Source: Balneola sp.
Lineage (GTDB): Bacteria > Bacteroidota > Rhodothermia > Balneolales > Balneolaceae
DNA length: 64,000 nt
NCBI GenBank assembly: GCA_003712055.1
Contig: RHLJ01000002.1
Location: 124,001-188,000 of the forward strand
Direction of reading: 5' to 3'
Shown here piece by piece: positions 23,814 to 35,547 of this stretch (position 1 is the stretch's first letter; each line of letters opens with the position of its first letter). Both the position numbers and the translations under genes were made by a program. The notes under the pieces are model-generated. The model did no database searches and was not told the origin of the DNA. It saw only the letters and a list, made by a program, of their open reading frames with translations.

Positions 23814-23902
23814 GATATGTGCGATTTATGAAATTTTTTGTAAGGAGTCTCCTCCTGCGCGGTCTAACTACGCAAAGAAAAATAAAAAGATTCGGAGTTC
23901 CA

Positions 23903-24625
23903 ATGTTAGCAAGAGTTTATTGTGCCGCTACTGTCGGTGTTGACGCAAGAATTATTGATGTAGAGACTCATCACACTAATGGGATGGTCAAATTTTTTTT
24001 AGTCGGATTGCCTGACCGTGCAGTTTCAGAGTCAAGAGATCGGGTGGAAGCAGCCATTAGAAATACAGGCTCCTATTATCCACTAGGGCGGATAACTGTA
24101 AATCTGGCTCCAGCTGATCTACCTAAAGAAGGGAATGCCTTTGATCTTCCCATAGCTATAGGCCTTCTCAATATGTCCGGGCAACTGCACACCTCCAAAC
24201 TGAATGATACTGTTGTGGTTGGTGAATTATCCTTAGATGGGAAAATTCGTCCTGTCAAAGGGGTACTTCCGGTTGCGGTAGAAGCGAAAAATCGAGGTTT
24301 TAAGCATTTAGTAGTTCCAAAAGAAAATGGTTCAGAAGCAGCAGTAGTTGATGGATTAGAAATATTTCCTTTCGAACATCTGAACCAGGTAAAAGACTGG
24401 TTAGAAGACAGGAGCCCGGTTCGTCCTCATTCATCAAACCTGGATTTAATTTTTAGCAAAAATGGAATTTCCGAAGTGCTTGATTTCAGCGATGTACGAG
24501 GTCAGGAAAATGTAAAAAGAGCCCTTGAGATAGCTGCGGCAGGTGGGCACAATGTAATAACATTATATTTTATTACACAACTAGTCTTATTGCCTGCTCT
24601 ATTGTCTCATTTCTCAATAGTATAA
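23903..24625 (+). pseudogene. comM: comM (yifB) 5' fragment, interrupted
   Basis: Start chosen at the ATG at 23903 (MLARVYCAATVGVDA), the family N-terminus, with GGAG five bases upstream; the frame also runs open to 23819. Residues 1-218 are the N-terminal Lon-protease-like (ChlI) domain and the start of the AAA+ domain, up to RGQENVKRALEIAAAGGHNV. At 24557 the genomic element begins, and the frame then reads about 21 foreign residues before a stop at 24625. ComM is the hexameric helicase aiding branch migration during natural transformation. This fragment lacks Walker A and everything after it, so it cannot be an active ATPase. The other half is at 34663. Confidence 0.95.
24534..24580 (+). 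other. attL (left junction)
   Basis: Chromosomal comM sequence up to GTA, then the AT core (24557-24558), then the element arm with ATTACACA at 24572-24579. That motif starts 13 bases after the core and mirrors TGTGTAAT in the right arm. Confidence 0.85.
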
Positions 24626-24633
24626 ATTTATAA

Positions 24634-24649
24634 ATGTCATTCACGACAT
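24634..24649. promoter_or_regulatory. Inverted repeat before the XRE gene (operator candidate)
   Basis: ATGTC-N6-GACAT, 16 bases before the ATG of the XRE-type gene at 24666. Size and position suit a self-regulated XRE repressor. Confidence 0.45.
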
Positions 24650-24665
24650 ATATAAACTTTAAACA

Positions 24666-24914
24666 ATGAATTCATCCGAGTTTAAACCAATTTACTCACT
24701 GAAAATCGCTCGAATGATTATCAACTTGACACAATATCGATTATCAAAACTCAGTTCGATATCTCAAGTCACGATATCAAAAATTGAGAATGGGATAGTT
24801 AGACCACGAGATAAAACTATTCTAAAAATAGAGAAGATTGTTGGCCCTGTAGATTGGGAGAGAACTTTTAGCGAAGGATTCATTCAAAGACGCAAGGTAA
24901 ATCATGAGCTATAG
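24666..24914 (+). CDS. XRE-type helix-turn-helix protein
   Basis: An 82-residue protein whose core is an XRE/Cro helix-turn-helix: IARMIINLTQYRLSKLSSIS, then QVTISKIENGIVRPRDKTILKI. It is probably the DNA-binding regulator at the left end of the element. The gene overlaps a 52-residue gene, which in turn overlaps a 299-residue gene, so all three look co-translated. A small inverted repeat lies in the short upstream region. It could act as repressor of this cascade or as excision/replication regulator; no partner is proven. Confidence 0.8.
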   Translation: MNSSEFKPIYSLKIARMIINLTQYRLSKLSSISQVTISKIENGIVRPRDKTILKIEKIVGPVDWERTFSEGFIQRRKVNHEL

Positions 24915-25062
24915 AATCTTTCAAGTTTTTAACTCAGGGAGAGTCGAAAACTCAGAGTCAACCGAAAAGTTATTACCTAATGGTGTTAAAGAAACTTCTA
25001 GCGCTATTACTTCGGATCAAAAAGAGAATTTATTCCCAACTGATTTCAAACCAAGAGAATGA
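24904..25062 (+). CDS. Small unknown protein (52 aa) of the left-end cascade
   Basis: It begins at an ATG (24904) inside the last codons of the XRE gene and ends with a TGA that overlaps the ATG of the next gene (ATGATG at 25059-25064). The 52 residues (MSYRIFQVFNSGRVENSEST...) are polar and resemble nothing I know. The tight overlaps on both sides are the main support. It could be a small partner of one of its neighbours. Confidence 0.55.
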   Translation: MSYRIFQVFNSGRVENSESTEKLLPNGVKETSSAITSDQKENLFPTDFKPRE

Positions 25063-25958
25063 TGAAGCGACATTTTAAGCCAAATAATGGTTCTCCAAGG
25101 TATGTAAATGGTAAGTACCCAAATTACGATAGGACTTACAATCACCTTAAAGAAAACTCTGTAATCTTTAACGAAGAACTAAGATCAAAAAGAGAATCCC
25201 ATTCTGCTGTAATGACTGGAATAGGCGAATGCAGAAACGCACTAGCGGAGTGGGAAGGTAATTCACAAGGATACTATGTAGTATATGACCGTAGGTATGA
25301 AGCTTTATTACCAATTGCCAAAAAAGGTGTTCTAGCTGTTGTAAATGAGTTTAATATCTGGCGAAATCAACAGGTAAAGAATGGCTACGCAATAGAAACA
25401 CCAAGTACATGGCCTAAAGACTTACTCGATCGAAAGCTTAAGGCAGAGGCATTACTAGATATTAGATATGCTGAGATAAAAGCGTTGAAGGATCGAATTG
25501 AGGCGCTCATTCAAGAAAAAGAGAAAAAGAAGAAACAAGGTATTCTACCGAATGGTCCTCAAGGTAGAACTACACAGGCAAATGAGAATGAACCAATAAC
25601 TGCTATGGATGGTCAGGGGGTTTCTTATTCAGATCAAGGCATCCCTTTTATCAATGAAGAATCTTCACCATACCATGGCATGTCTGTTTTCCATTATCGC
25701 CAAATGTGTAAAGAATGGAGAAAAGAAGTAGGTATAACACCTGCTCAGCTTGTTACAAAAGCAGAAGAGATTTTTCTTGAGCAAAAACAGATTGCCAAAG
25801 AAGAAGGAATCGAACCGCCTCTTTTTCCTCCAGTAACTAGTGAGTTCAAACTACCAGAATGGATAAAGAGACTTGGAATAACTAAAAAAGATTGGCCTAA
25901 ATGGCCAGAAGGCGTAAAGCCTATTAAGAATATATCTGTACCCATTGCTCAGATATAG
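25059..25958 (+). CDS. Unknown 299-aa element protein with central coiled coil
   Basis: Not recognised. Residues ~25-150 appear helical, ending in a lysine/glutamate-rich coiled coil (LKDRIEALIQEKEKKKKQ, about 142-160). A polar linker then leads to a C-terminal segment with YHGMSVFHYRQMCKEWRKEV and PEWIKRLGITKKDWPKWPEG. No signal peptide or membrane helix. Translationally coupled to the 52-residue gene and followed by a terminator-like stem-loop, so it closes a three-gene unit led by the XRE protein. A DNA-binding or replication-accessory role is possible but unsupported. Confidence 0.6.
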   Translation: MMKRHFKPNNGSPRYVNGKYPNYDRTYNHLKENSVIFNEELRSKRESHSAVMTGIGECRNALAEWEGNSQGYYVVYDRRYEALLPIAKKGVLAVVNEFNIWRNQQVKNGYAIETPSTWPKDLLDRKLKAEALLDIRYAEIKALKDRIEALIQEKEKKKKQGILPNGPQGRTTQANENEPITAMDGQGVSYSDQGIPFINEESSPYHGMSVFHYRQMCKEWRKEVGITPAQLVTKAEEIFLEQKQIAKEEGIEPPLFPPVTSEFKLPEWIKRLGITKKDWPKWPEGVKPIKNISVPIAQI

Positions 25959-26031
25959 CTTGGAGTAAGTCATAGTACATACTCTCCTATTCGAGAGACG
26001 AAAGTCTTTCGGTTTATTATGATTAAATAAT

Positions 26032-26058
26032 CGTCGGGTATAACAACCCGACGGTTTT
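26032..26058 (+). terminator. Intrinsic terminator after the left-end cascade
   Basis: CGTCGGGT (26032-26039) and ACCCGACG (26046-26053) form an 8-bp stem with a 6-base loop, followed by GTTTTTG. Confidence 0.8.
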
Positions 26059-26133
26059 TGGATTTCGTTCTGATGCTAAATCGGACAAAGGGGCTGTTGA
26101 GTTTCGGGTCATTCATCAGCAGTCCCTTGATTG

Positions 26134-26231
26134 TATAATATAGAACTGGATAGGCTGTGCACGCTGAAAAGCTTGGTTTCTACTTCACCAAGCATTCCAG
26201 TTCACAATTTTTGAAGTAGTAAATGAAGTAG
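26134..26231 (+). promoter_or_regulatory. Structured leader of the polymerase-like gene
   Basis: TATAAT at 26134-26139 may be a -10 box. Downstream, GCTTGGT (26171-26177) pairs with ACCAAGC (26187-26193). The 9-base loop contains CTACTTC, complementary to GAAGTAG, which occurs twice: at 26213-26219 and at 26225-26231, just before the ATG at 26238. A loop-to-ribosome-site interaction or antisense control is suggested. Confidence 0.5.
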
Positions 26232-26237
26232 AAGAAT

Positions 26238-27476
26238 ATGAGGAAGACTTTACGTGTTATTTCCCAAATTGATAAATACAGGTATACAGATGCTTGGTGG
26301 CAAAATTCCGTTTCATTTGATCACAGCTTATCTCTCAGTGATAGTTTCAGTAAAAAATTTGAGTCTATCATTGTTGAATGTAAAATACCAAATAGAAAAG
26401 ATTCACTTATCAATTTCGAGATACTTATTGCTAATCTCATATATGCAAAGAATAGAAAACCAATTCGAGTTTCACTTGGTAGATCATCCAATAACTGGAA
26501 AAAAACTAGATACACAAAAGCTGGAAAATCGACTATACAATATATCCACATATTAGAAATACATGGATTTATAATAATGAAGAAAGGATTCAGAGATAAA
26601 AGAAACCCTGTAAATAGTAGGCTTACTAGGATTACTGCTACTAATAAACTTCTTAGCAGTTTAACTGAACTGAATAGCTGTGTTATAAAAAAACCTGTAG
26701 AGCTTGTAGAATTGAAGGATGAAAATGGGGCTCTGATAGACTACCATGATAATTCGATTAGTAATTCCATTAGAGAGATTCTCGAGAGAACTAATAGGAT
26801 CAACAGTAGTTCAAATATTCTTTATCTGGATCAAAAACTCTCAGTTTTCTTAGTCTCAATATTCATCAATGATTTTAAGAGTTATGGGAGATTACACACG
26901 AGGGGGTATTTACATCATCAAGCTTTAAATGAGAATGAGAGAGCTGAAATAACAATTGATGGGGAAGATATTGGGGAGTTAGATTTTAGTGCCTTACATC
27001 CAAATCTTCTTTATGCTTTGGAGGGTATACAATACTTTGGCGATCCATACTCGAGAATTGATGAAAGGCCACAGCTAAGACCTTTTTTAAAAGCAATGCT
27101 GCTTGCTCTTTTAAACTCTGAAGATATTGTTCAAGCTGAACGTGCCTGTAATAAATGGCTTTTTGACAATCTAACTTTGGATGAAAGACAAAAACTAAAA
27201 TTGACAAAAGCGAGACCATATCTAGAATCGATGATCGAAGCACATAGTCCGATTTCGCATCATTTTTGTAGTGGCAAAGTATCTGGGCTAAGAATTATGA
27301 ATCTAGATTCAAAGATTGCATTAGATATACTAGCACACTTTACAGATAAAGGCATTCCAATTTTACCTGTTCATGATTCATTCATTGTACAGAGACGATA
27401 TCTAACAGAGTTAAAAAAAGTGATGAAATCAGTATACCGTAAACACACAAACGGGTACAGAATTAAAGTGAAGTGA
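26238..27476 (+). CDS. Compact family-A-polymerase-like protein
   Basis: A 412-residue protein. The C-terminal half shows, in order, the three palm/fingers motifs of family A DNA polymerases and T7-type RNA polymerases. Motif A is GELDFSALHP with D249. A motif-B-like helix has R281 and K285 spaced R-x3-K, as in T7 RNAP and Pol I, but the usual YG at +12/+13 is N-S. Motif C is LPVHDSFIV with H379 and D380; HDS, rather than HDE, is the T7-RNAP form. Preceding LRIMNLDSKIALDIL resembles the segment before motif C in Pol I. No 3'-5' exonuclease domain is visible. Residues 1-190 are unassigned. It may be the replicase or primase of the excised element. Confidence 0.6.
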   Translation: MRKTLRVISQIDKYRYTDAWWQNSVSFDHSLSLSDSFSKKFESIIVECKIPNRKDSLINFEILIANLIYAKNRKPIRVSLGRSSNNWKKTRYTKAGKSTIQYIHILEIHGFIIMKKGFRDKRNPVNSRLTRITATNKLLSSLTELNSCVIKKPVELVELKDENGALIDYHDNSISNSIREILERTNRINSSSNILYLDQKLSVFLVSIFINDFKSYGRLHTRGYLHHQALNENERAEITIDGEDIGELDFSALHPNLLYALEGIQYFGDPYSRIDERPQLRPFLKAMLLALLNSEDIVQAERACNKWLFDNLTLDERQKLKLTKARPYLESMIEAHSPISHHFCSGKVSGLRIMNLDSKIALDILAHFTDKGIPILPVHDSFIVQRRYLTELKKVMKSVYRKHTNGYRIKVK

Positions 27477-27484
27477 TCAGATGG

Positions 27485-27532
27485 AAAACGTACTAGTTAA
27501 TATCAGATGCTCCCAAAACGTACTAGTTAATA
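27485..27532. repeat. Two 18-bp iteron-like direct repeats
   Basis: AAAACGTACTAGTTAATA occurs at 27485-27502 and 27515-27532, a 30-bp period (about three helical turns), 9 bp after the polymerase-like gene. Each contains the palindrome ACTAGT. They may be binding sites for an element protein, as operator or origin. Confidence 0.85.
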
Positions 27533-27660
27533 CGAATTGCATAATTAATCTAACTAATAAACATAGCTGCTGGTTTACCAGCCAACTATTTTCATTTTCA
27601 GATGTTCATCCTTTTCTGATACCAAATATTTCAGACCCCAAATTTTTAATCACCTAAGTT

Positions 27661-28410
27661 ATGCCACAAAGATGCAGAGTTTGTACCCACCCCAGAAGAA
27701 AAGAAATTGAAAAGCTGATTGTATCAGGTCAACCATATACCCAGATATCCAGAGAGTATGGGATGTCAGATGACTCAGTAAGTTATCACGCCCAAAACCA
27801 TCTGACTGCAAAGCTGATTAAAGTTGCACAAGAAGATGAGCATAACCATATAACTGATATCTTGTCTGGAGTAAATGATATTCTTAAAAGACTAGAAAGA
27901 ATCTTTGAGGAGGCTGACCGAAAAGACCAGAAGAGACTTGCTTTAGATGCCATAAAAGAATTGCGTACTACTTATGAATTCCTGGCAAAAGTAGAGGTCA
28001 AGAAAGCTGAACTTAATCGAGACAAGAAAGAACAAGGTAGTAGATTTATAGAAGAACAAATCACCAATGGGTTTATGGCACTTTCTGATAACGAACTACA
28101 TGCCTTTACCCAGTTGGTTGGTAAGATTTATTCAGCTGACCCTGACTATGAACTAGACCCCGTTGGCAAATTAGTGGTAGACCAGTATAAGCCCGTTGAT
28201 TTGCTCAAGAGAAGTAAACCAGATAGGAAGATTAGAATGAAGCGAAAGAGAAACAAAACACCTTTGGAAGAGCGGAGTACTCCTCAAACCTCAGATGATA
28301 GTTTATCTCTGGATTGGGATGATCTGGAATTGGATGAATTTGATACTATTCCAAGTATAGAAACTGATCCCCGCTGGTTACAGGAAGACATCAACAAAGG
28401 AATTAGGTAA
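27661..28410 (+). CDS. Zinc-site/HTH protein with helical body
   Basis: A 249-residue protein. Residues 1-50 combine a C5-x2-C8 pair with a helix-turn-helix (YTQISREYGMSDDSVSYHAQ) and H43-x3-H47, giving a plausible CCHH zinc site around a DNA-binding helix. Similar N-termini occur in many phage and element proteins. Residues 60-135 form a charged helical region, and the C-terminal ~60 residues are basic then acidic and low in structure. It may bind the nearby 18-bp repeats; a small-terminase-like role is an alternative, but no large terminase is present. Confidence 0.6.
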   Translation: MPQRCRVCTHPRRKEIEKLIVSGQPYTQISREYGMSDDSVSYHAQNHLTAKLIKVAQEDEHNHITDILSGVNDILKRLERIFEEADRKDQKRLALDAIKELRTTYEFLAKVEVKKAELNRDKKEQGSRFIEEQITNGFMALSDNELHAFTQLVGKIYSADPDYELDPVGKLVVDQYKPVDLLKRSKPDRKIRMKRKRNKTPLEERSTPQTSDDSLSLDWDDLELDEFDTIPSIETDPRWLQEDINKGIR

Positions 28411-28554
28411 TCAAAGGCTGAAACTCGGTAGAATATCCATTTCTAAGAGCTTAGCTACCTCTTTCTTATATCTTTGTTGGCCTCAATGGTTTTAAGCCAT
28501 TTAAACCCAGCAGAATCACCCTATGTAAGATGCTGTTAAATAAAATCCTATGTC

Positions 28555-28590
28555 ATAATATTTCTTAAACGACCGGTTAAGAAACGTTAT
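28555..28590. promoter_or_regulatory. Imperfect palindrome before the small serine recombinase
   Basis: TTTCTTAA (28561-28568) and TTAAGAAA (28577-28584) are perfect 8-bp arms around an 8-bp spacer. With the flanking ATAA/TTAT the dyad reaches 14 bp per arm with two mismatches. It lies 31 bp before the gene. It could be a recombination or dimer-resolution site, or an operator. Confidence 0.55.
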
Positions 28591-28621
28591 ATTTGATACA
28601 CAGGAACCAATTGATGAACAG

Positions 28622-29335
28622 ATGCAACAGTATATCGGGTATTACAGGGTAAGCACAAGAGGACAGGGTAAATCGGGATTAGGATTGGAAGCACAACGGA
28701 CAGCTGTTCGTAATTTTTTAAAAGGCAAGCAGGCAACGGAGATTGATTCATTTACAGAAGTGGAGTCTGGTAAAAAATTTGATCGTCCAATACTTAGGCA
28801 GGCAATTGATAAGTGCAAGCAAACAGGTTCGAAATTACTAGTAGCGAAACTGGACAGGCTAAGCAGGAATGCGAAGTTTCTATTTACATTGAAGGACGAA
28901 CTGGAAGATGCAGGCATTGGATTTACCATAGCTGACATGCCTGAAGCGAATACATTGGTACTTGGATTTATGGCTTCACTAGCACAATATGAAGCTGAGT
29001 TAATTTCTACGCGAACGAAGGAAGGACTAACGGAGGCAAAGCGGAAAGGTAAAAAGATTGGCTCCCCGCAAAATCTAACCAAAGAAGCTCGTCAGAAGGC
29101 ACTATCGACTATCAGAGACAAAGCAAGAAGCGATGTTGATACACGTAAAGCATTCCATTTCATTCAACCACGACGCGAGCAAGGTTGGTCGTATGCTAAG
29201 ATAGCTTCCGCTCTCAACAAAGAGGGTTACAGAACAAGAAATAATAAATTATTTTTTCCATCTCAAACTAGGAGGGTATTTATGCGGTATTTAGACGTTA
29301 ATAATTATACACTTATAAAAAGTACTAATGAATAA
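28622..29335 (+). CDS. Small serine recombinase (resolvase/invertase type)
   Basis: A 237-residue protein. The catalytic domain opens with YYRVSTRGQG, giving nucleophile S11, and includes KLDRLSRNAKFLF and the LGFMASLAQYEAELISTRTKEGL helix with the conserved arginines (cited in part). The C-terminal ~70 residues hold a helix-turn-helix region (GWSYAKIASALNKEGYRTRN). It lacks the zinc ribbon and coiled coil of the large recombinase at 32879. Probably resolves multimers or inverts a segment; the palindrome just upstream is a candidate site. Confidence 0.9.
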   Translation: MQQYIGYYRVSTRGQGKSGLGLEAQRTAVRNFLKGKQATEIDSFTEVESGKKFDRPILRQAIDKCKQTGSKLLVAKLDRLSRNAKFLFTLKDELEDAGIGFTIADMPEANTLVLGFMASLAQYEAELISTRTKEGLTEAKRKGKKIGSPQNLTKEARQKALSTIRDKARSDVDTRKAFHFIQPRREQGWSYAKIASALNKEGYRTRNNKLFFPSQTRRVFMRYLDVNNYTLIKSTNE

Positions 29336-29422
29336 CTCTGTAATAACTCAGAATTGCTTTAATCATAGATTTGGAATATTTTTACCCTATAATCTAACAA
29401 CTTAAATATAGGTATTAATTTC

Positions 29423-30133
29423 ATGAAGATACTTTCTCAAGAAGAGGCAAGAGATGAGCTCGACGGATATATGAATACCATCGCTGATGCAATTGAACGT
29501 GCAGTTAGCGAAGCGAATACTCAGGCAAAGCCTCATAACACAAAAAGAACACGTGCCGAATTAGTAAGAGATCAAGCGGTACAAAATTTAAAGGAAGAGT
29601 TCACTAACACAAGTGGCGTAACAGTTTTAGAGAAGGACAATACAGTTCTTTTTCGATTTGGTGAATCAATCATAGCACGTGTCAAAAAACTGGATAAGAA
29701 CTTCAATGCAAGTTACAATCACACACCAAGCTCGAGAGATTATACTAGTCAGAATTATGAATTATTCGGGGAAGAACACAAACTAACCAGCGTTCACATT
29801 GGTTATGTACTTGATGGATTCGGAGTTAGTATTTCAAATATGGCTATCGTTTGCCCTGTTAATAAAGGCAAACGATATACGTGGATTATTCCAATAGATG
29901 GAAGTACTACTATGACTGGATCACTATCATTTCCAAATGGACCAACTGATGCAGACACAAATGCTGATGATCGATTCAAAGTCAAAACTTACAGTGACGA
30001 TGAAAGCGAAGTGAACGAAAACCAAACACAACACGAAGACAAGAAGAAACAAACTGATGGCAGGCTCAGGATCAAATCAAAGCTACAAAAGGGTGAATCC
30101 CAAAATGGTCGAACTAGCGAGGGAGGCGCGTGA
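29423..30133 (+). CDS. Unknown protein paired with the XRE-ImmA/IrrE protein
   Basis: A 236-residue soluble protein, not recognised. Residues 1-60 are helical and charged, 65-175 appear beta-rich (VLFRFGESIIARV, SVHIGYVLDGFGVSISNMAIVC in part), and the last ~50 residues are polar and low in complexity. Its 3' end overlaps the XRE-metallopeptidase gene by up to 77 bp, which marks the two as a co-translated pair. Two-gene units with an XRE-ImmA/IrrE partner include toxin-antitoxin and phage-defence modules (RosmerTA is one that has been described). Membership here is only a suggestion. Confidence 0.55.
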   Translation: MKILSQEEARDELDGYMNTIADAIERAVSEANTQAKPHNTKRTRAELVRDQAVQNLKEEFTNTSGVTVLEKDNTVLFRFGESIIARVKKLDKNFNASYNHTPSSRDYTSQNYELFGEEHKLTSVHIGYVLDGFGVSISNMAIVCPVNKGKRYTWIIPIDGSTTMTGSLSFPNGPTDADTNADDRFKVKTYSDDESEVNENQTQHEDKKKQTDGRLRIKSKLQKGESQNGRTSEGGA

Positions 30134-31184
30134 ACTAACACAAACTAAACTAGCTAGTTTATTGAATGTATCACAAGGGATGGTTTCTAAAATCGAACAG
30201 GGTTTAAATTCTGTTGATGATGATATATTAAGGAAACTATCCCGAGTCTTACGTTACCCAGAATCTTTTTTCCTTCAGGATCATAGAATTTATGTTCCCG
30301 GAATAGGTTTTGACCGTAATCGTAAGTCGTTAGGGGTAAAAAAAAGAAATTCAATTGATGCTAAAATAAATATTCAGAGAATGCACGTGCAGAATCTGCT
30401 TAGTGCTGTTGAACTTGTATCTGAAAACATTCCTCGAATTGATTATTTAGATGGCAACCTTTCTCCAGAAGAACCAGAGATTGTTGCGAATGCAGTAAGA
30501 CAATATTACAAGTTGCCACGTGGACCAATTGAGAATCTTACAAAAGTTCTTGAGGATTCAGGCATTTTTGTAATTGAAACAGACTTTGACACTGATAAGC
30601 AGTTTGGCATGACAGTTCAAGCACCTGAAGTACCAGCGATTATTTTCTTGAACAAGAATCTCTCTCCAGACAGAATGCGATTCACTTTGGCTCATGAATT
30701 GGGACATATAATTATGCATGAAATGCCTAGTCCTGAATCTGAATCACAAGCTGATCGATTTGCCTCGGAATTGTTACTCCCAAGTGACGAAATAAAAAAA
30801 GATCTGCTAAATCATGGAATAAATAGAATGTATTTGCAGAATCTTAAAGACTTGAAATATAAATGGGGAGTCTCATTTCAGACTTTAGTAAAAAAAGCAT
30901 TGGACTTAGGGATTATTTCTGCCAAGCAACGACAGTATTTTTATGTACAAATGTCAAGAAATGGCTATTCAAGAAATAATGAGCCGGATTGTGGTTTGGA
31001 GAAAGAAAAACCAACTCTCTTTAATAATCTTCTAAAGCTTTATAAAAGTGAATTAGATTATTCCGATATAGATTTGGCAAAGGTTATGTCTCTCAACAAA
31101 GAGGAATATCAATCTTTATATAGTAATGAAGAATTACGGCCAAGATTGAGGCTGATTGCAAATAGTGGAAGGCATGCAGTTTAG
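30057..31184 (+). CDS. XRE HTH - ImmA/IrrE zinc metallopeptidase protein
   Basis: Up to 375 residues. An XRE helix-turn-helix (REARELTQTKLASLLNVSQG, then MVSKIEQGLNSVDDDILRKL, about 21-60) is followed by an ImmA/IrrE domain with the zinc motif HELGH (213-217) and a downstream glutamate in ESQADRFASELLLP. The ATG at 30057 lies deep in the previous gene. A GTG at 30093 would give the usual family start VNPKMVELAREA with a purine-rich site upstream, so the true start may be there. Proteins of this type cleave or bind repressors, or act in toxin-antitoxin and defence units. The protein is all-cytoplasmic. Confidence 0.85.
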   Translation: MAGSGSNQSYKRVNPKMVELAREARELTQTKLASLLNVSQGMVSKIEQGLNSVDDDILRKLSRVLRYPESFFLQDHRIYVPGIGFDRNRKSLGVKKRNSIDAKINIQRMHVQNLLSAVELVSENIPRIDYLDGNLSPEEPEIVANAVRQYYKLPRGPIENLTKVLEDSGIFVIETDFDTDKQFGMTVQAPEVPAIIFLNKNLSPDRMRFTLAHELGHIIMHEMPSPESESQADRFASELLLPSDEIKKDLLNHGINRMYLQNLKDLKYKWGVSFQTLVKKALDLGIISAKQRQYFYVQMSRNGYSRNNEPDCGLEKEKPTLFNNLLKLYKSELDYSDIDLAKVMSLNKEEYQSLYSNEELRPRLRLIANSGRHAV

Positions 31185-32158
31185 TTGCATGCCCTTCTTA
31201 CTATTCTTGAACGTCTATCACCAGATACATAAGTTTTATTACCATTTGAATTAATGTAATACTTCCCACCTCGAGGCCCTGTGTAAATTTTCCTACCATT
31301 ATAATACTCACATTGGGCTGTTGAAGTACTGCGGACATTTCGATTTTGAGTATTAGAACTGGTTCTTGAGTTAACAGCTGAACCATTATTAGAAGTTGTA
31401 CTTACTGTACTATTGAATTCCCATAAACTTATATCTATAGTTGACTCAAATGGTTCTTCTAATGAGTCTTCAAGATTATGATAAAAGTCCAATCCTGTAA
31501 AAGATTCTACTGAATCAACAGTCACTGCATAGTTGGTTATTGGTAGATCATTTCCGTCAGAGTTTTCTAAAATGAACCCAATTGCTTTCCTTTCATCAGT
31601 TGGATCATATACTACTTTATAAAAGTATTTAGGAACCCCAATCTCATTTTCACCAATTGATTCAATGATACCTTTACTCAATACTGGACCTGTTATAACA
31701 TAAACCCTCTCTTCTGTTAATGCCCAATTCCGAACAATTGATTCAAGGGACCTCCAAATCCCTCTATTGAATGATCGATGTTGTGGTGAAATATTGGAGT
31801 AATAAAATGAACTAGACATAGATTCTTCACTCATTTTTAAATCAGCTGCTGGAATCAAATGTCCGCGATCGTAACCTGAATTGGCATAGTCTCCGTATCC
31901 GGCAGTACCTGTAGTAATCTTAAAGTCACCTTTGAAAGAATCCTTTCGTGGGGTTGTACCATTTACTTCTGTAGCTGTAAGTTCATACGCAACCCAATCA
32001 GCTTGCTCGTAAGCTTCGTTATAAGAAAGTGAATACCAAGTTCGGTGAATTATTTGGTTGCCATCTACTGCATTGGCTAAAAATACTTGATTCTGAGCTA
32101 TTGAAATTCCTTGAGTCAAGAAAACCACTACTGTTAAAAGTAGAATGATTCTTTTCAT
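31181..32158 (-). CDS. Secreted DNA/RNA non-specific endonuclease with basic adaptor-like tail
   Basis: A 325-residue precursor with a signal peptide (1-21). The NUC/endonuclease-G type domain shows the active-site DRGH (D97-H100) and the metal-binding asparagine in SFNRGIW (N131), with FYYSNISPQH between. The catalytic domain ends near residue 225. A Ser/Thr/Asn-rich linker leads to a C-terminal YTGPRGGKYYINSNGNKTYV unit (about 290-309), which resembles the PBCV-type basic adaptor repeat. It should degrade nucleic acids outside the cytoplasm. The gene is convergent with the XRE-ImmA gene (4-bp overlap) and is a cargo gene of the element. Confidence 0.88.
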   Translation of the reverse strand: MKRIILLLTVVVFLTQGISIAQNQVFLANAVDGNQIIHRTWYSLSYNEAYEQADWVAYELTATEVNGTTPRKDSFKGDFKITTGTAGYGDYANSGYDRGHLIPAADLKMSEESMSSSFYYSNISPQHRSFNRGIWRSLESIVRNWALTEERVYVITGPVLSKGIIESIGENEIGVPKYFYKVVYDPTDERKAIGFILENSDGNDLPITNYAVTVDSVESFTGLDFYHNLEDSLEEPFESTIDISLWEFNSTVSTTSNNGSAVNSRTSSNTQNRNVRSTSTAQCEYYNGRKIYTGPRGGKYYINSNGNKTYVSGDRRSRIVRRACN

Positions 32159-32375
32159 GATAGAGACCTATTAAAATTAACCACGACGTTTTAATTGTAA
32201 GACCCCTGAGATTTGAACTCCTTACATTTTGGTTAATAAATTAATTAAATGAATCTATCATGAAGTTGAAAGCAAACACTCTAATTTTAATTGATTGTAT
32301 CTAACATCATTTTCATTACATATTCATATTAAATAGATTAATTCAGTGCATATAATTATTAAGGGGTATATGAAT

Positions 32376-32855
32376 ATGATCAGAATGACTTTTGTTTTAA
32401 GCTATTTATTAATAGTTAATGGAAATATTCTAGCACAAAGCTATCAACTCAACTCATTGGTAGGACTTGATAGCGTAAATGTCGTTGTTGATATACAAAG
32501 TGATTCAGATCATTCGTACGACGAGGATAATTTAATTGATAAAACTGAGCTTAGACTACGAAGAAATGGGCTCAAAATATCTGAAAACAGATTTAACTCT
32601 ACTGTATTTATAAGATTTCTAATTAAAGATATAACACTAGGTACTCGAAATGTTGGTTACTCAATATCATATGAGTTAATGCTTTCTCAGGGAACAATAC
32701 TTTTGAGTAACTATCAATATGTAGAACCTGCCATATGGTTAAGAAGCGGAGTAAGCTTGATAGGGGATGATTACACTAGAGATGAGTTAACTCGATTAAC
32801 TGATCAATTACTAGACACTTTCTTAAATGAGTTACTAACTGCTAATCCGGATTAG
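32376..32855 (+). CDS. Small exported protein of unknown function
   Basis: A 159-residue protein counted from the ATG at 32376, which has AAGGGG nine bases upstream; the in-frame ATGs at 32346 and 32370 are worse placed. A signal peptide (about 1-20, ending NILAQS) precedes a beta-rich domain. There are no cysteines after the signal peptide and no motif I recognise. It is divergent from the nuclease gene and convergent with the large recombinase gene. It may be an accessory to the nuclease, but only position suggests this. Confidence 0.55.
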   Translation: MIRMTFVLSYLLIVNGNILAQSYQLNSLVGLDSVNVVVDIQSDSDHSYDEDNLIDKTELRLRRNGLKISENRFNSTVFIRFLIKDITLGTRNVGYSISYELMLSQGTILLSNYQYVEPAIWLRSGVSLIGDDYTRDELTRLTDQLLDTFLNELLTANPD

Positions 32856-32878
32856 TTTATGATTAGCAATTAAGGCAA

Positions 32879-34582
32879 TTACATTTCCTTAATTGGAACT
32901 CTATATCTCTTAAGAGTAACGATCGTATTATTTCTCTCTTTAGTGTTGAAAATAACTTTAAACTTCTTGATATAACGACTCTCCATATGTACTATTACTC
33001 CTGGTTCATCAATTGGCATATTTCTAACATATGGCTCTTTTCGGGGATAAATCTCTACTCCATTAACAACGTTACCTATTAGCTGATGAAGTTTTTTTCT
33101 TCTATTTATTTTTTCTTCTTCTGATGTAGCTGTTTCTAAATATTCCCTCGCTTTGGTTATTTCTTTTTGAGAGGATTTAAGTTTTTTCGATTCATTTCTT
33201 AATGAATACAATTCAAGATTCAGATTATTTATTACTTTGGATAGATCAGTCTGCTCTTCTATAATTTTTTCAATTTTTAGTTCAAGCTTATTTCGTACCA
33301 CTTTATTACGAGTTGTAGAAATTGTATCAATTAAATTAGACACCTGATCTTCTAATTGTCTTACCCGAAATTTTTCAGCTGATATTTTTAGCTCATTTTC
33401 TGAAATCTGCTTCTTCAGCTCATCTTTATCATTAATGAATTTACTTAAATCCACCTCTTCTATGTATTTGAAGAAGAGTTCAAAGAAATCTTGATATCTA
33501 ACACTCCTTGCCCGACAAATACGGTTCCCATTCTCATCCTTTAATGCACGTTTTGCACTGTAGCACCTTAGATACTTACCTCCTTTTGAAGTATCACCTT
33601 TATTATCATAATGCATAGCTGAACCACATTCTCCACATTTGACAATTTTCACAAACACATTGCTATGTACCCCATTAGATCCATTTCTTCCAACATGGTA
33701 TCCATGTCTTTCTTTCCAATCTAAAATATGCTCCTGTACTGCTTCAAATAATTCCTTTTCAACAATCGGTGGGTAATAATTAATTATTTTATTTCCGATT
33801 TCTTTGCGTTTACCACTTTGCTTAGAGTGTGGCTGATATTCACCCAACACTCTTCTATCATGAATGTATCTTTGTATAGTGGAAGGTGGCCAATTGCGAG
33901 TCAATCTATCAGCTATTCGCTTATTTCCAAGTCCTTCAAGCTTTAATTGGAACATCATACGTACTTCAGCAGCAATATCTTTTTTAATTTTAAAGGATAT
34001 CGTTTTACCATTTTTGTTTGTAACAGGCTCAAGCCATAATGGGCAGATTTTACTTAGCTTTTCCTCACCTTTTTCTGATTTTTCTCTTTTTACTCGCCAG
34101 TTAGCCCTTCCTCTAATTGTTTTCTTTAACGACTCCTCGTGACCAGTTTGAAGTATTATCGCAGATAGAACAAGCTGTCCAACATCAAATGTATCTTTTG
34201 TGTAATACTGCTTATCTGCTGCCGTATATATACCTACTCCTTTAAGTAAGATTCCTGTCATTAGATGAACAGCCTCTAATAGTGCCTGCCTTGTTAATCT
34301 ATCTAGCATTTCTATTACAAGAACACTACCCTCTGCGATCTTTCCATCATTAATTAGGGTCTCGAAATAACCTAAAGCACCTTTCGTCCTATTTTCTCCT
34401 GTAAAACCTGAAAATCCTTCGTCAACTAATTTTAACTCATTGTCGAGTGGTAAATCCAAACTCTTTGCGATTTTTTCATAATCGATATCTTCAGTTTGCC
34501 TTCGTAATCCATCACCTTCTCTTTGTTTACCTGTACTAATTCTTATGTAACTGTAAACTTTTGGGGTACTTTGATTTTCCAT
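32879..34582 (-). CDS. Large serine recombinase (integrase of the element)
   Basis: A 567-residue protein with the three-part layout of large serine integrases. The catalytic domain carries nucleophile S16 (YIRISTGKQ) and EMLDRLTRQ. A recombinase domain (~165-300) includes GLGNKRIADRLTRNWPPSTI. A zinc ribbon starts with CGECGSAMHY and pairs with a later CYSAK...CRARS, and is followed by a long coiled coil (~385-480). The start lies 77 bp from the right junction and the gene reads leftward into the element, the usual placement beside attP. It is the likely enzyme that inserted the element into comM. Confidence 0.96.
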   Translation of the reverse strand: MENQSTPKVYSYIRISTGKQREGDGLRRQTEDIDYEKIAKSLDLPLDNELKLVDEGFSGFTGENRTKGALGYFETLINDGKIAEGSVLVIEMLDRLTRQALLEAVHLMTGILLKGVGIYTAADKQYYTKDTFDVGQLVLSAIILQTGHEESLKKTIRGRANWRVKREKSEKGEEKLSKICPLWLEPVTNKNGKTISFKIKKDIAAEVRMMFQLKLEGLGNKRIADRLTRNWPPSTIQRYIHDRRVLGEYQPHSKQSGKRKEIGNKIINYYPPIVEKELFEAVQEHILDWKERHGYHVGRNGSNGVHSNVFVKIVKCGECGSAMHYDNKGDTSKGGKYLRCYSAKRALKDENGNRICRARSVRYQDFFELFFKYIEEVDLSKFINDKDELKKQISENELKISAEKFRVRQLEDQVSNLIDTISTTRNKVVRNKLELKIEKIIEEQTDLSKVINNLNLELYSLRNESKKLKSSQKEITKAREYLETATSEEEKINRRKKLHQLIGNVVNGVEIYPRKEPYVRNMPIDEPGVIVHMESRYIKKFKVIFNTKERNNTIVTLKRYRVPIKEM

Positions 34583-34635
34583 AATGCATCATTTTAATGA
34601 AAGTCGGACACACAAGAAATGAAATCATTTATAAA

Positions 34636-34686
34636 TAGTGTGTAATTAACTACAACATTATTATGGTAGGACCACCGGGATCAGGT
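34636..34686 (+). other. attR (right junction)
   Basis: The element arm carries TGTGTAAT at 34639-34646, 13 bases before the AT core (34660-34661), after which comM resumes at TATGGTAGG. Joined to the left arm it gives a dyad-symmetric attP (TGTGTAAT-N13-AT-N13-ATTACACA). Confidence 0.85.
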
Positions 34687-35547
34687 AAAACGATGATGGC
34701 TCGAAGGATTCCCACCATTCTTCCTCCCTTAACTCTTGATGAAGCTTTAGAAACCACAAAAATACATTCTGTTTCCGGTTTGCTTCAATCTGGTAAGGCG
34801 CTCATTACTTCCAGGCCGTTTAGGGCACCACATCATACAGTATCGGATGTAGCTCTGGTAGGTGGGGGTGGAATTCCCATGCCGGGCGAAATTTCCATGG
34901 CGCATAATGGAGTGTTGTTTTTAGACGAACTCCCTGAATTCAAGCGAAGTGCGTTGGAGGTGATGCGCCAGCCCCTGGAAGATGGTTTTGTCTCTATCTC
35001 CAGAGCCAGAATGAGCGTTACTTATCCAAGCAGAGTAATGCTCGTTGCTTCCATGAATCCATCCCCTTCCGGAGACTGGTATAACCCAAATGAAGGAGGA
35101 GGGGTTAGCTCATTACAAATGCAGCGATACCTAAGTAAGATCAGCGGCCCGCTTCTGGATAGGATTGACCTGCATATTGAAGTAAATAAAGTGAGCTATG
35201 ATGAGCTTTCTGGTCGGGCAAAAGGAGAGTCTTCTGAAGAAATTCGAAAAAGAGTTATCGAAGCCAGGAAAATTCAGTCACAGCGTTTCTTTGGCGCAAA
35301 GGGAGTATATAACAATGCTCAAATGAATACCCGACAGGTAAGAAAAGTGTGCAAGCTTGATACTACAGGTTCAGAAATACTGAAAGGGGCGATTATTTCA
35401 CTAGGCCTATCTGCAAGAGCATATGATCGAATTTTAAAAGTAGGCAGAACGATCGCTGATTTGGATAAATCGGAAAACATCCAGGCTAATCATATTGCAG
35501 AAGCCATTCAGTACCGGAGTTTAGATCGAGAAGGGTGGCTGGGGTGA
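34663..35547 (+). pseudogene. comM: comM (yifB) 3' fragment
   Basis: Continues ComM from [17 protein letters not shown] (Walker A) through [10 protein letters not shown], the Walker B segment [15 protein letters not shown], sensor region [17 protein letters not shown] and the C-terminal MG-chelatase-like region to REGWLG. The reading frame is intact for ~294 residues. It happens to begin with ATG at the junction but has no clear ribosome site, and it lacks the N-terminal domain. It would be restored to a full gene by precise excision. Confidence 0.95.

Follow-up and report, generated by a model that had tools for sequence, protein, structure and literature searches.

Polymerases of the kind described here have been predicted twice. 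The TV-Pol proteins of mobile elements were defined by an absolutely conserved arginine in a hairpin, two aspartates in the palm, an aspartate and an RxxxK motif in the fingers, and the absence of nucleases; their mobile-element neighbourhoods contain a gamma-delta resolvase, a lambda-type integrase or transposase, or a D5 helicase, and in some cases a gene of its own next to the polymerase gene encodes the N-terminal domain (Iyer, Abhiman, Aravind 2008; PMC2579912). CcPol, which was assigned to the TV-Pol group, primes DNA and carries out primer-independent synthesis with its partner MP; it is close to Pol I and keeps the equivalents of E710 and F762 (PMC7581432). The second prediction is divPolA2, which came from a study of polymerase swapping in tailed phages. 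It has an active palm, no exonuclease and an unknown N-terminal domain that replaces the thumb, occurs as 2–3 paralogues in some genomes, and was proposed to be either a repair DNA polymerase or an RNA polymerase; the phage genes adjoin a regular PolB and lie outside replication modules, in variable neighbourhoods (Yutin et al. 2024; PMC11348598). The enzyme kind is therefore already known, as predictions, and the suggestion in an earlier note on this DNA that no characterised enzyme of so compact a form was known does not hold, given these two papers. The jobs predicted for the two guises differed (primase-polymerase, repair polymerase and RNA polymerase), and the family is not listed in the searched part of the text of a survey, dated 2026, of the DNA polymerases of bacteria (PMC12926913).

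The window analysed here, that is, the whole stretch of 64,000 nucleotides from Balneola sp., contains an ORF with an ATG start on the forward strand (26238–27476) that encodes a 412-aa protein of this kind. It matched phrog_4756 of PHROG, which is annotated as "unknown function", with an E-value of 6e-60. The motifs read from the sequence by the earlier note were recovered at the same residues: GELDFSALHP with D249, the catalytic Asp of motif A (26982–26984, +), R281-x3-K285 in the fingers helix (27078–27092, +), and LPVHDSFIV with H379-D380 in motif C (H379-D380-S381, 27372–27380, +). N293-S294 also occupies the place of the usual Tyr-Gly after motif B. These features were conserved in 81 non-redundant and diverse relatives, which are about 20–38% identical to the window polymerase. 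G217, R218, R235, D249, K285, P374, H379 and D380 were invariant (81/81), while E247, D269, Y271, R281, N293, D357 and S381 were kept in at least 76 of the 81, including N293 and S381 in 80 each, R281 in 79 and D269 in 76. Such a motif set is well beyond chance. The window polymerase itself had no Pfam or NCBIfam match, PADLOC gave no match for it among known defence systems, and searches of the PDB by sequence (phmmer and a profile search) returned no polymerase.

The polymerase fold suggested by the earlier note was borne out by structure prediction. The AlphaFold2 model, built from an alignment of 75 rows from which six rows of phage or plasmid records were left out, had a pLDDT of 91.7 (about 95–99 in the core, poor at residues 1–17 only) and a pTM of 0.88. 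It contains, in order, a beta-hairpin (204–210/218–222), the motif-A strand (243–250), an O-helix-like fingers helix (278–293), a helix at 348–370 and the motif-C hairpin (376–385). In the palm and fingers of family-A enzymes the elements follow one another in this same order, and the outcome that the earlier note had named as refuting (no palm, or motifs A and C far apart) was not seen in the model. No exonuclease domain was found by Pfam or in the predicted structure, as the earlier note had said. All 50 PDB matches listed by Foldseek were family-A DNA polymerases, including apPol, Aquifex, Bst, Taq, Klenow and Pol theta, with a best E-value of 1.3e-6 and a probability of 1.00; no T7-type RNA polymerase was among them. 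The TM-scores normalized by query length were low overall (0.24–0.37), which we read as meaning that only the palm and fingers are common to the polymerase and its PDB matches. A single clear helix (173–191) precedes the hairpin, and a thumb of the Pol I kind is absent from the model. When the family was aligned with the Pol I profile by hhalign, R218 in the hairpin (26889–26891, +) fell on the Arg of TGR and D249 on the Asp of DYSQ(V/I)EL, which is the correct register at a nonsignificant E-value (0.012–0.017). Single T7 DNAP and RNAP sequences and shallow profiles gave no significant E-value in hhalign, and the right register was obtained from the Pol I profile only. Judged from sequence and model together, the ORF is a family-A polymerase with an intact pair of metal-binding aspartates and an intact catalytic set, and its product is very probably an active polymerase.

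We then assigned the sugar-gate positions from the standard numbering of Pol I and T7 RNAP and from the spacing of the motifs (five residues after the Asp of motif A, eight after the Lys of motif B), rather than from superposed structures; the hhalign register backs the motif A position only. On this assignment both classic residues are replaced. The steric-gate Glu of Pol I (E710) corresponds to H254 (26997–26999, +), which is His in 73 of 81 relatives, and the Tyr of Pol I Y766 and T7 RNAP Y639 corresponds to N293 (27114–27116, +), which is Asn in 80 of 81. Because both positions are replaced nearly family-wide, Pol I and T7 give no guide to the choice between dNTPs and rNTPs.

The window polymerase has almost the full set of defining TV-Pol features. 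The hairpin Arg is R218 (81/81), between strands 204–210 and 218–222; the two palm aspartates are D249 and D380 (81/81 each); the fingers residues are D269 (76/81), R281 (79/81) and K285 (81/81); and there is no nuclease domain. A resolvase and a serine integrase are encoded in the same element, and in some relatives the N-terminal domain is a separate ORF. It differs from TV-Pol in that no D5 helicase occurs in the element. The two-helix antiparallel thumb of TV-Pol is not evident in the model, which shows one clear helix before the hairpin. The named member from Ma-LMM01 was not detected by the family HMMs. By its feature set, and not by direct homology to a named TV-Pol, the window polymerase is of a known kind. 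The likeness to divPolA2 includes homology: the representative AUR84708 (MG592441.1) was matched by tblastn (E 3e-6) and scored 143.8 bits with the family HMM, and the window polymerase likewise combines palm motifs A, B and C with the lack of a 3'–5' exonuclease and with an unrelated N-terminal domain where Pol I has its thumb. In contrast to phage divPolA2, the window copy lies in a chromosomal element within comM and not in a phage genome beside PolB. We therefore classed it as homologous to divPolA2 and not as phage divPolA2, because phages were the only source of the published description. Among the replication proteins of virophages (TV-Pol–D5 fusions of Sputnik and Zamilon), that of Zamilon, V6BPG7, was a structural match by Foldseek (E 7.2e-4, probability 1.00). 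However, these proteins are fused to a helicase, and only about 250 columns align with the window polymerase, at 15% identity.

The family is wide, with members in phages and in many bacterial phyla. By tblastn, 285 phage records (Vibrio, Rheinheimera, Aeromonas and others) and three plasmids matched the polymerase, and a scan with a family alignment found 75 genome loci and 33 viral loci. When the same genome and viral collections were scanned with the single protein instead, no relatives came up. The family is sparse in the phylum of the host (4 of 297 genomes), and a profile search found it in 3 of 129 genomes of the host's order. At least one recombinase was encoded within 6 kb of the polymerase at 54 of the 81 related loci (47 tyrosine, 19 serine), and no D5 helicase was found around the 81 loci in a search with one partial seed, a weak test. 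The phylogeny of homologues proposed in the earlier note was also built. In this tree, the viral rows lie dispersed among the bacterial ones, with at least five changes forced by the starred branches. Since the two kinds of rows interleave, the phage divPolA2 proteins and the polymerases of elements form one family, and we found no paper that states this. Several variations were seen among the relatives. Large Vibrio and Aeromonas phages commonly have 2–3 places per phage that match the family, outside any evident replication module. A divergent relative in the bacterial family of the host (L352:2807–4033, –) has HDA instead of HDS in motif C and matched phrog_4756 at E 9e-19. The separate ORF that represents the N-terminal domain lies directly before the polymerase ORF at two loci (L014, 5796–6230; L032, 8818–9696).

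That the polymerase gene belongs to a mobile element, as the earlier note had proposed, was confirmed by the boundaries of the element. A segment of 10,102 bp (24557–34661) is inserted in comM/yifB, just ahead of the codons for the Walker A motif (GPPGSGKT), and divides the gene into a 5' part (23819–24558, +) and a 3' part (34660–35547, +), both recognized by comparison with intact comM. The crossover consists of the AT dinucleotides at 24557–24558 (attL core) and 34660–34661 (attR core). When the flanks were joined at this attB, comM was restored in frame, as in the intact comM of relatives, and the rebuilt attP was imperfectly palindromic, at 16 of 21 positions. Near the right end lies a gene for a large serine integrase of 567 aa (32879–34582, –) with resolvase, recombinase and Zn-ribbon domains (Pfam), whose weak similarity to CcrB (7.3e-9) was below the cut-off.

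On the left side of the element, the polymerase gene is preceded by genes for a small HTH regulator of the Cro/C1 type (82 aa; 24666–24914, +; Pfam HTH_3, 2.3e-10) and for a 299-aa protein without a Pfam match (25059–25958, +). It is followed by genes for a 249-aa protein with an N-terminal Cys/His segment and an HTH-like segment that gave weak HTH matches (27661–28410, +), for a small serine resolvase of 237 aa (28622–29335, +; Pfam Resolvase, 1.8e-32), and for a 236-aa protein to which no family was given (29423–30133, +). The start of the next gene (30057–31184, +) overlaps that ORF by 77 bp in a different frame; its product, a regulator with an HTH and an ImmA/IrrE peptidase domain (Pfam M78, 7.9e-19; HTH_3, 3.4e-11), matched the RmrA models of PADLOC strongly (E 5e-59). 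A gene for a secreted-type DNA/RNA non-specific endonuclease with a basic adaptor C-terminus of the PBCV type (31181–32158, –; PF01223, 7.4e-55) is cargo. Its homologue near a polymerase of the family in Lentisphaerae (L015:384–1376, E 1.4e-53) indicates a cargo that is common across phyla. A 169-aa protein, also without a family (32346–32855, +), completes the gene set. Among the products of the element, Pfam recognized neither a helicase or D5 ATPase nor a known SSB, and searches of the element for a relaxase or transfer gene and for RNA families likewise gave none.

Related elements occur at exactly the same comM site, with the same AT core, in two other genomes of the same bacterial family as the host (L012 and L351). 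Four core genes are common to the three elements; they encode the small resolvase, the integrase, the 249-aa protein and the 299-aa protein, the last with homologues that are 37% and 32% identical. The small HTH regulator also has a homologue in L012. The L012 element is syntenic and keeps the polymerase (35% identical). In L351, an unrelated orphan protein of 308 aa occupies the polymerase slot, and directly behind its gene are 22-bp iterons in 3.6 copies (L351:9961–10040; G341:C9), which by sequence look like an iteron origin. In the same relative place in the window element, beginning 9 bp behind the polymerase stop, we found a perfect 18-nt direct repeat, AAAACGTACTAGTTAATA, in two copies that lie 30 bp apart (27485–27532, +); none of 100 shuffles gave three matches, and we consider this a candidate origin or iteron region. 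Searches gave no function for the 308-aa protein, its single-sequence structure model had a pLDDT of 34, and no plasmid homologues of it or of the 299-aa protein were found. A possible likeness of this protein to the TV-Pol N-terminus, from a winged-helix-like hhalign match of 22 columns (E 0.026), was set aside. The replacement of the polymerase by a protein with iterons behind its gene suggests that one replication protein may have been displaced by another, and this exchange is the strongest hint from gene context that initiation of replication is what the slot serves. Among more distant relatives, serine-integrase elements with the same polymerase family lie beside comM/yifB fragments in Lentisphaerae (L015), in Rhizobium (L036) and on a viral contig (L090), so that comM seems to be a recurrent home for such elements.

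Copying or priming of the excised element, which the earlier note had inferred as the task of the polymerase, is supported here as its likely role. The polymerase probably functions in element replication, and we favour, with only modest assurance, the reading that it is the replication protein of this comM-resident integrative element, with the task of priming the excised circle or initiating its replication. The large serine integrase would excise the 10.1-kb element as a circle, with comM repaired. The repeats at 27485–27532 would be engaged by the winged-helix-like N-terminal part of the polymerase, perhaps together with one of two core proteins (249 aa or 299 aa). The palm would then start a strand there, either de novo in the manner of a primase or from a nick or short primer; de novo priming is possible, though somewhat doubtful. 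The strand would be extended by the helicase and replicase of the host, and the small resolvase would resolve multimers of the replicating circle. We counted in favour of this role that all three comM elements retain a dedicated small resolvase. The recombinases near most relatives, the conserved element core with its exchange in the slot and the precedent of priming by CcPol also speak for it. Against it, the window element has no helicase, whereas TV-Pol and CcPol elements usually have one, the model lacks a thumb of the Pol I kind, and only two repeats follow the polymerase. The position of phage divPolA2 beside PolB and outside replication modules also argues against an obligatory replicative role in phages (PMC11348598).

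The same phage arrangement, with a regular PolB present and variable gene neighbourhoods (PMC11348598), fits a repair or gap-filling polymerase, for example one for second-strand synthesis after entry of single-stranded DNA or for tidying recombination intermediates, and so do the lack of a helicase nearby and the absent exonuclease, which suits low-fidelity synthesis. Nevertheless, the steady residence of the family in integrative elements and the slot swap with an unrelated protein and iterons fit initiation better, and transfer of single-stranded DNA is not evident where no relaxase or transfer gene was found; we hold this explanation to be unlikely. Another rival reading is a DNA-directed RNA polymerase of the single-subunit type known from T7 and mitochondria, which would transcribe genes of the element or phage. 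For divPolA2, an RNA polymerase was raised by Yutin et al. (2024; PMC11348598) because Dali gave matches to the RNAPs of mitochondria and N4, and a likeness to T7 RNAP had also been seen in the earlier note. As far as motif C is concerned, the likeness stood, with the Ser of HDS kept in 80 of 81 relatives; LQxxDS resembles HSxDG of T7 RNAP in our own reading, the RNA-polymerase family phrog_414 was matched weakly by 2 of the 81 members (E about 4e-4), and the steric-gate Glu of Pol I is lost. The likeness did not extend further: the sugar-recognition Tyr of RNAPs (K+8 in motif B) is replaced by Asn293 in 80 of 81, the promoter-binding N-terminal domain of the T7 kind is absent, the top 50 PDB matches listed are DNA polymerases only, and an unsystematic look at the element showed no repeated T7-like promoter. 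An RNA polymerase is thus an improbable reading.

Two further explanations have very little probability. Membership in the CcPol-MP (PolA-SSB) primases of SCC elements was suggested by the similar setting, in which a family-A palm without an active exonuclease is encoded in an element with a large serine integrase (PMC7581432; PMC10061031), and by the weak CcrB match of the integrase. It was largely refuted, because none of the 81 members matched PF00476, although CcPol itself is a close relative of Pol I, and because H254 and L289 stand in the window polymerase at the E710 and F762 equivalents that are kept in CcPol (PMC7581432). Behind CcPol come an SSB-like MP and a helicase; in the window element Pfam recognized no helicase and no known SSB, and no CcPol-MP pair of the SCCmec type was found there. 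A catalytically degenerate or regulatory relic would have a parallel in those PolA-SSB relatives that consist of an RRM only, without the Asp residues (PMC10061031), but here all catalytic residues are invariant among proteins about 20–40% identical and the ORF is intact, so that we give a relic equally little weight.

Returning to the replication protein, its role can be put in a more specific form. It would be a one-polypeptide family-A primase-polymerase in which a winged-helix origin-binding domain is joined to a palm whose sugar gate has changed from Glu/Tyr to His/Asn; it would start replication of the comM circle although it brings neither a helicase nor an SSB, and elements of this class would swap the module against an iteron-type initiator. 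Taken as a whole, this version is rather speculative and we would not expect all of it to hold. If it were true, the phage divPolA2 genes would be captured element-replication modules. To the two earlier predictions, the present analysis adds the union of divPolA2 with the polymerases of elements, the conserved His/Asn pair, and a class of comM elements whose replication slot is exchangeable. The chief gain is that starting element replication, as the likely job, is now open to direct test, given one family, an element with defined ends, an excision site that can be assayed and a nearly invariant His/Asn pair at the sugar gate. Elsewhere in the window, the segment 51000–53300 has a low GC content (0.31–0.33) and contains small ORFs, among them a cysteine-rich ORF of 108 aa and one for a TonB-C-like protein of 145 aa.
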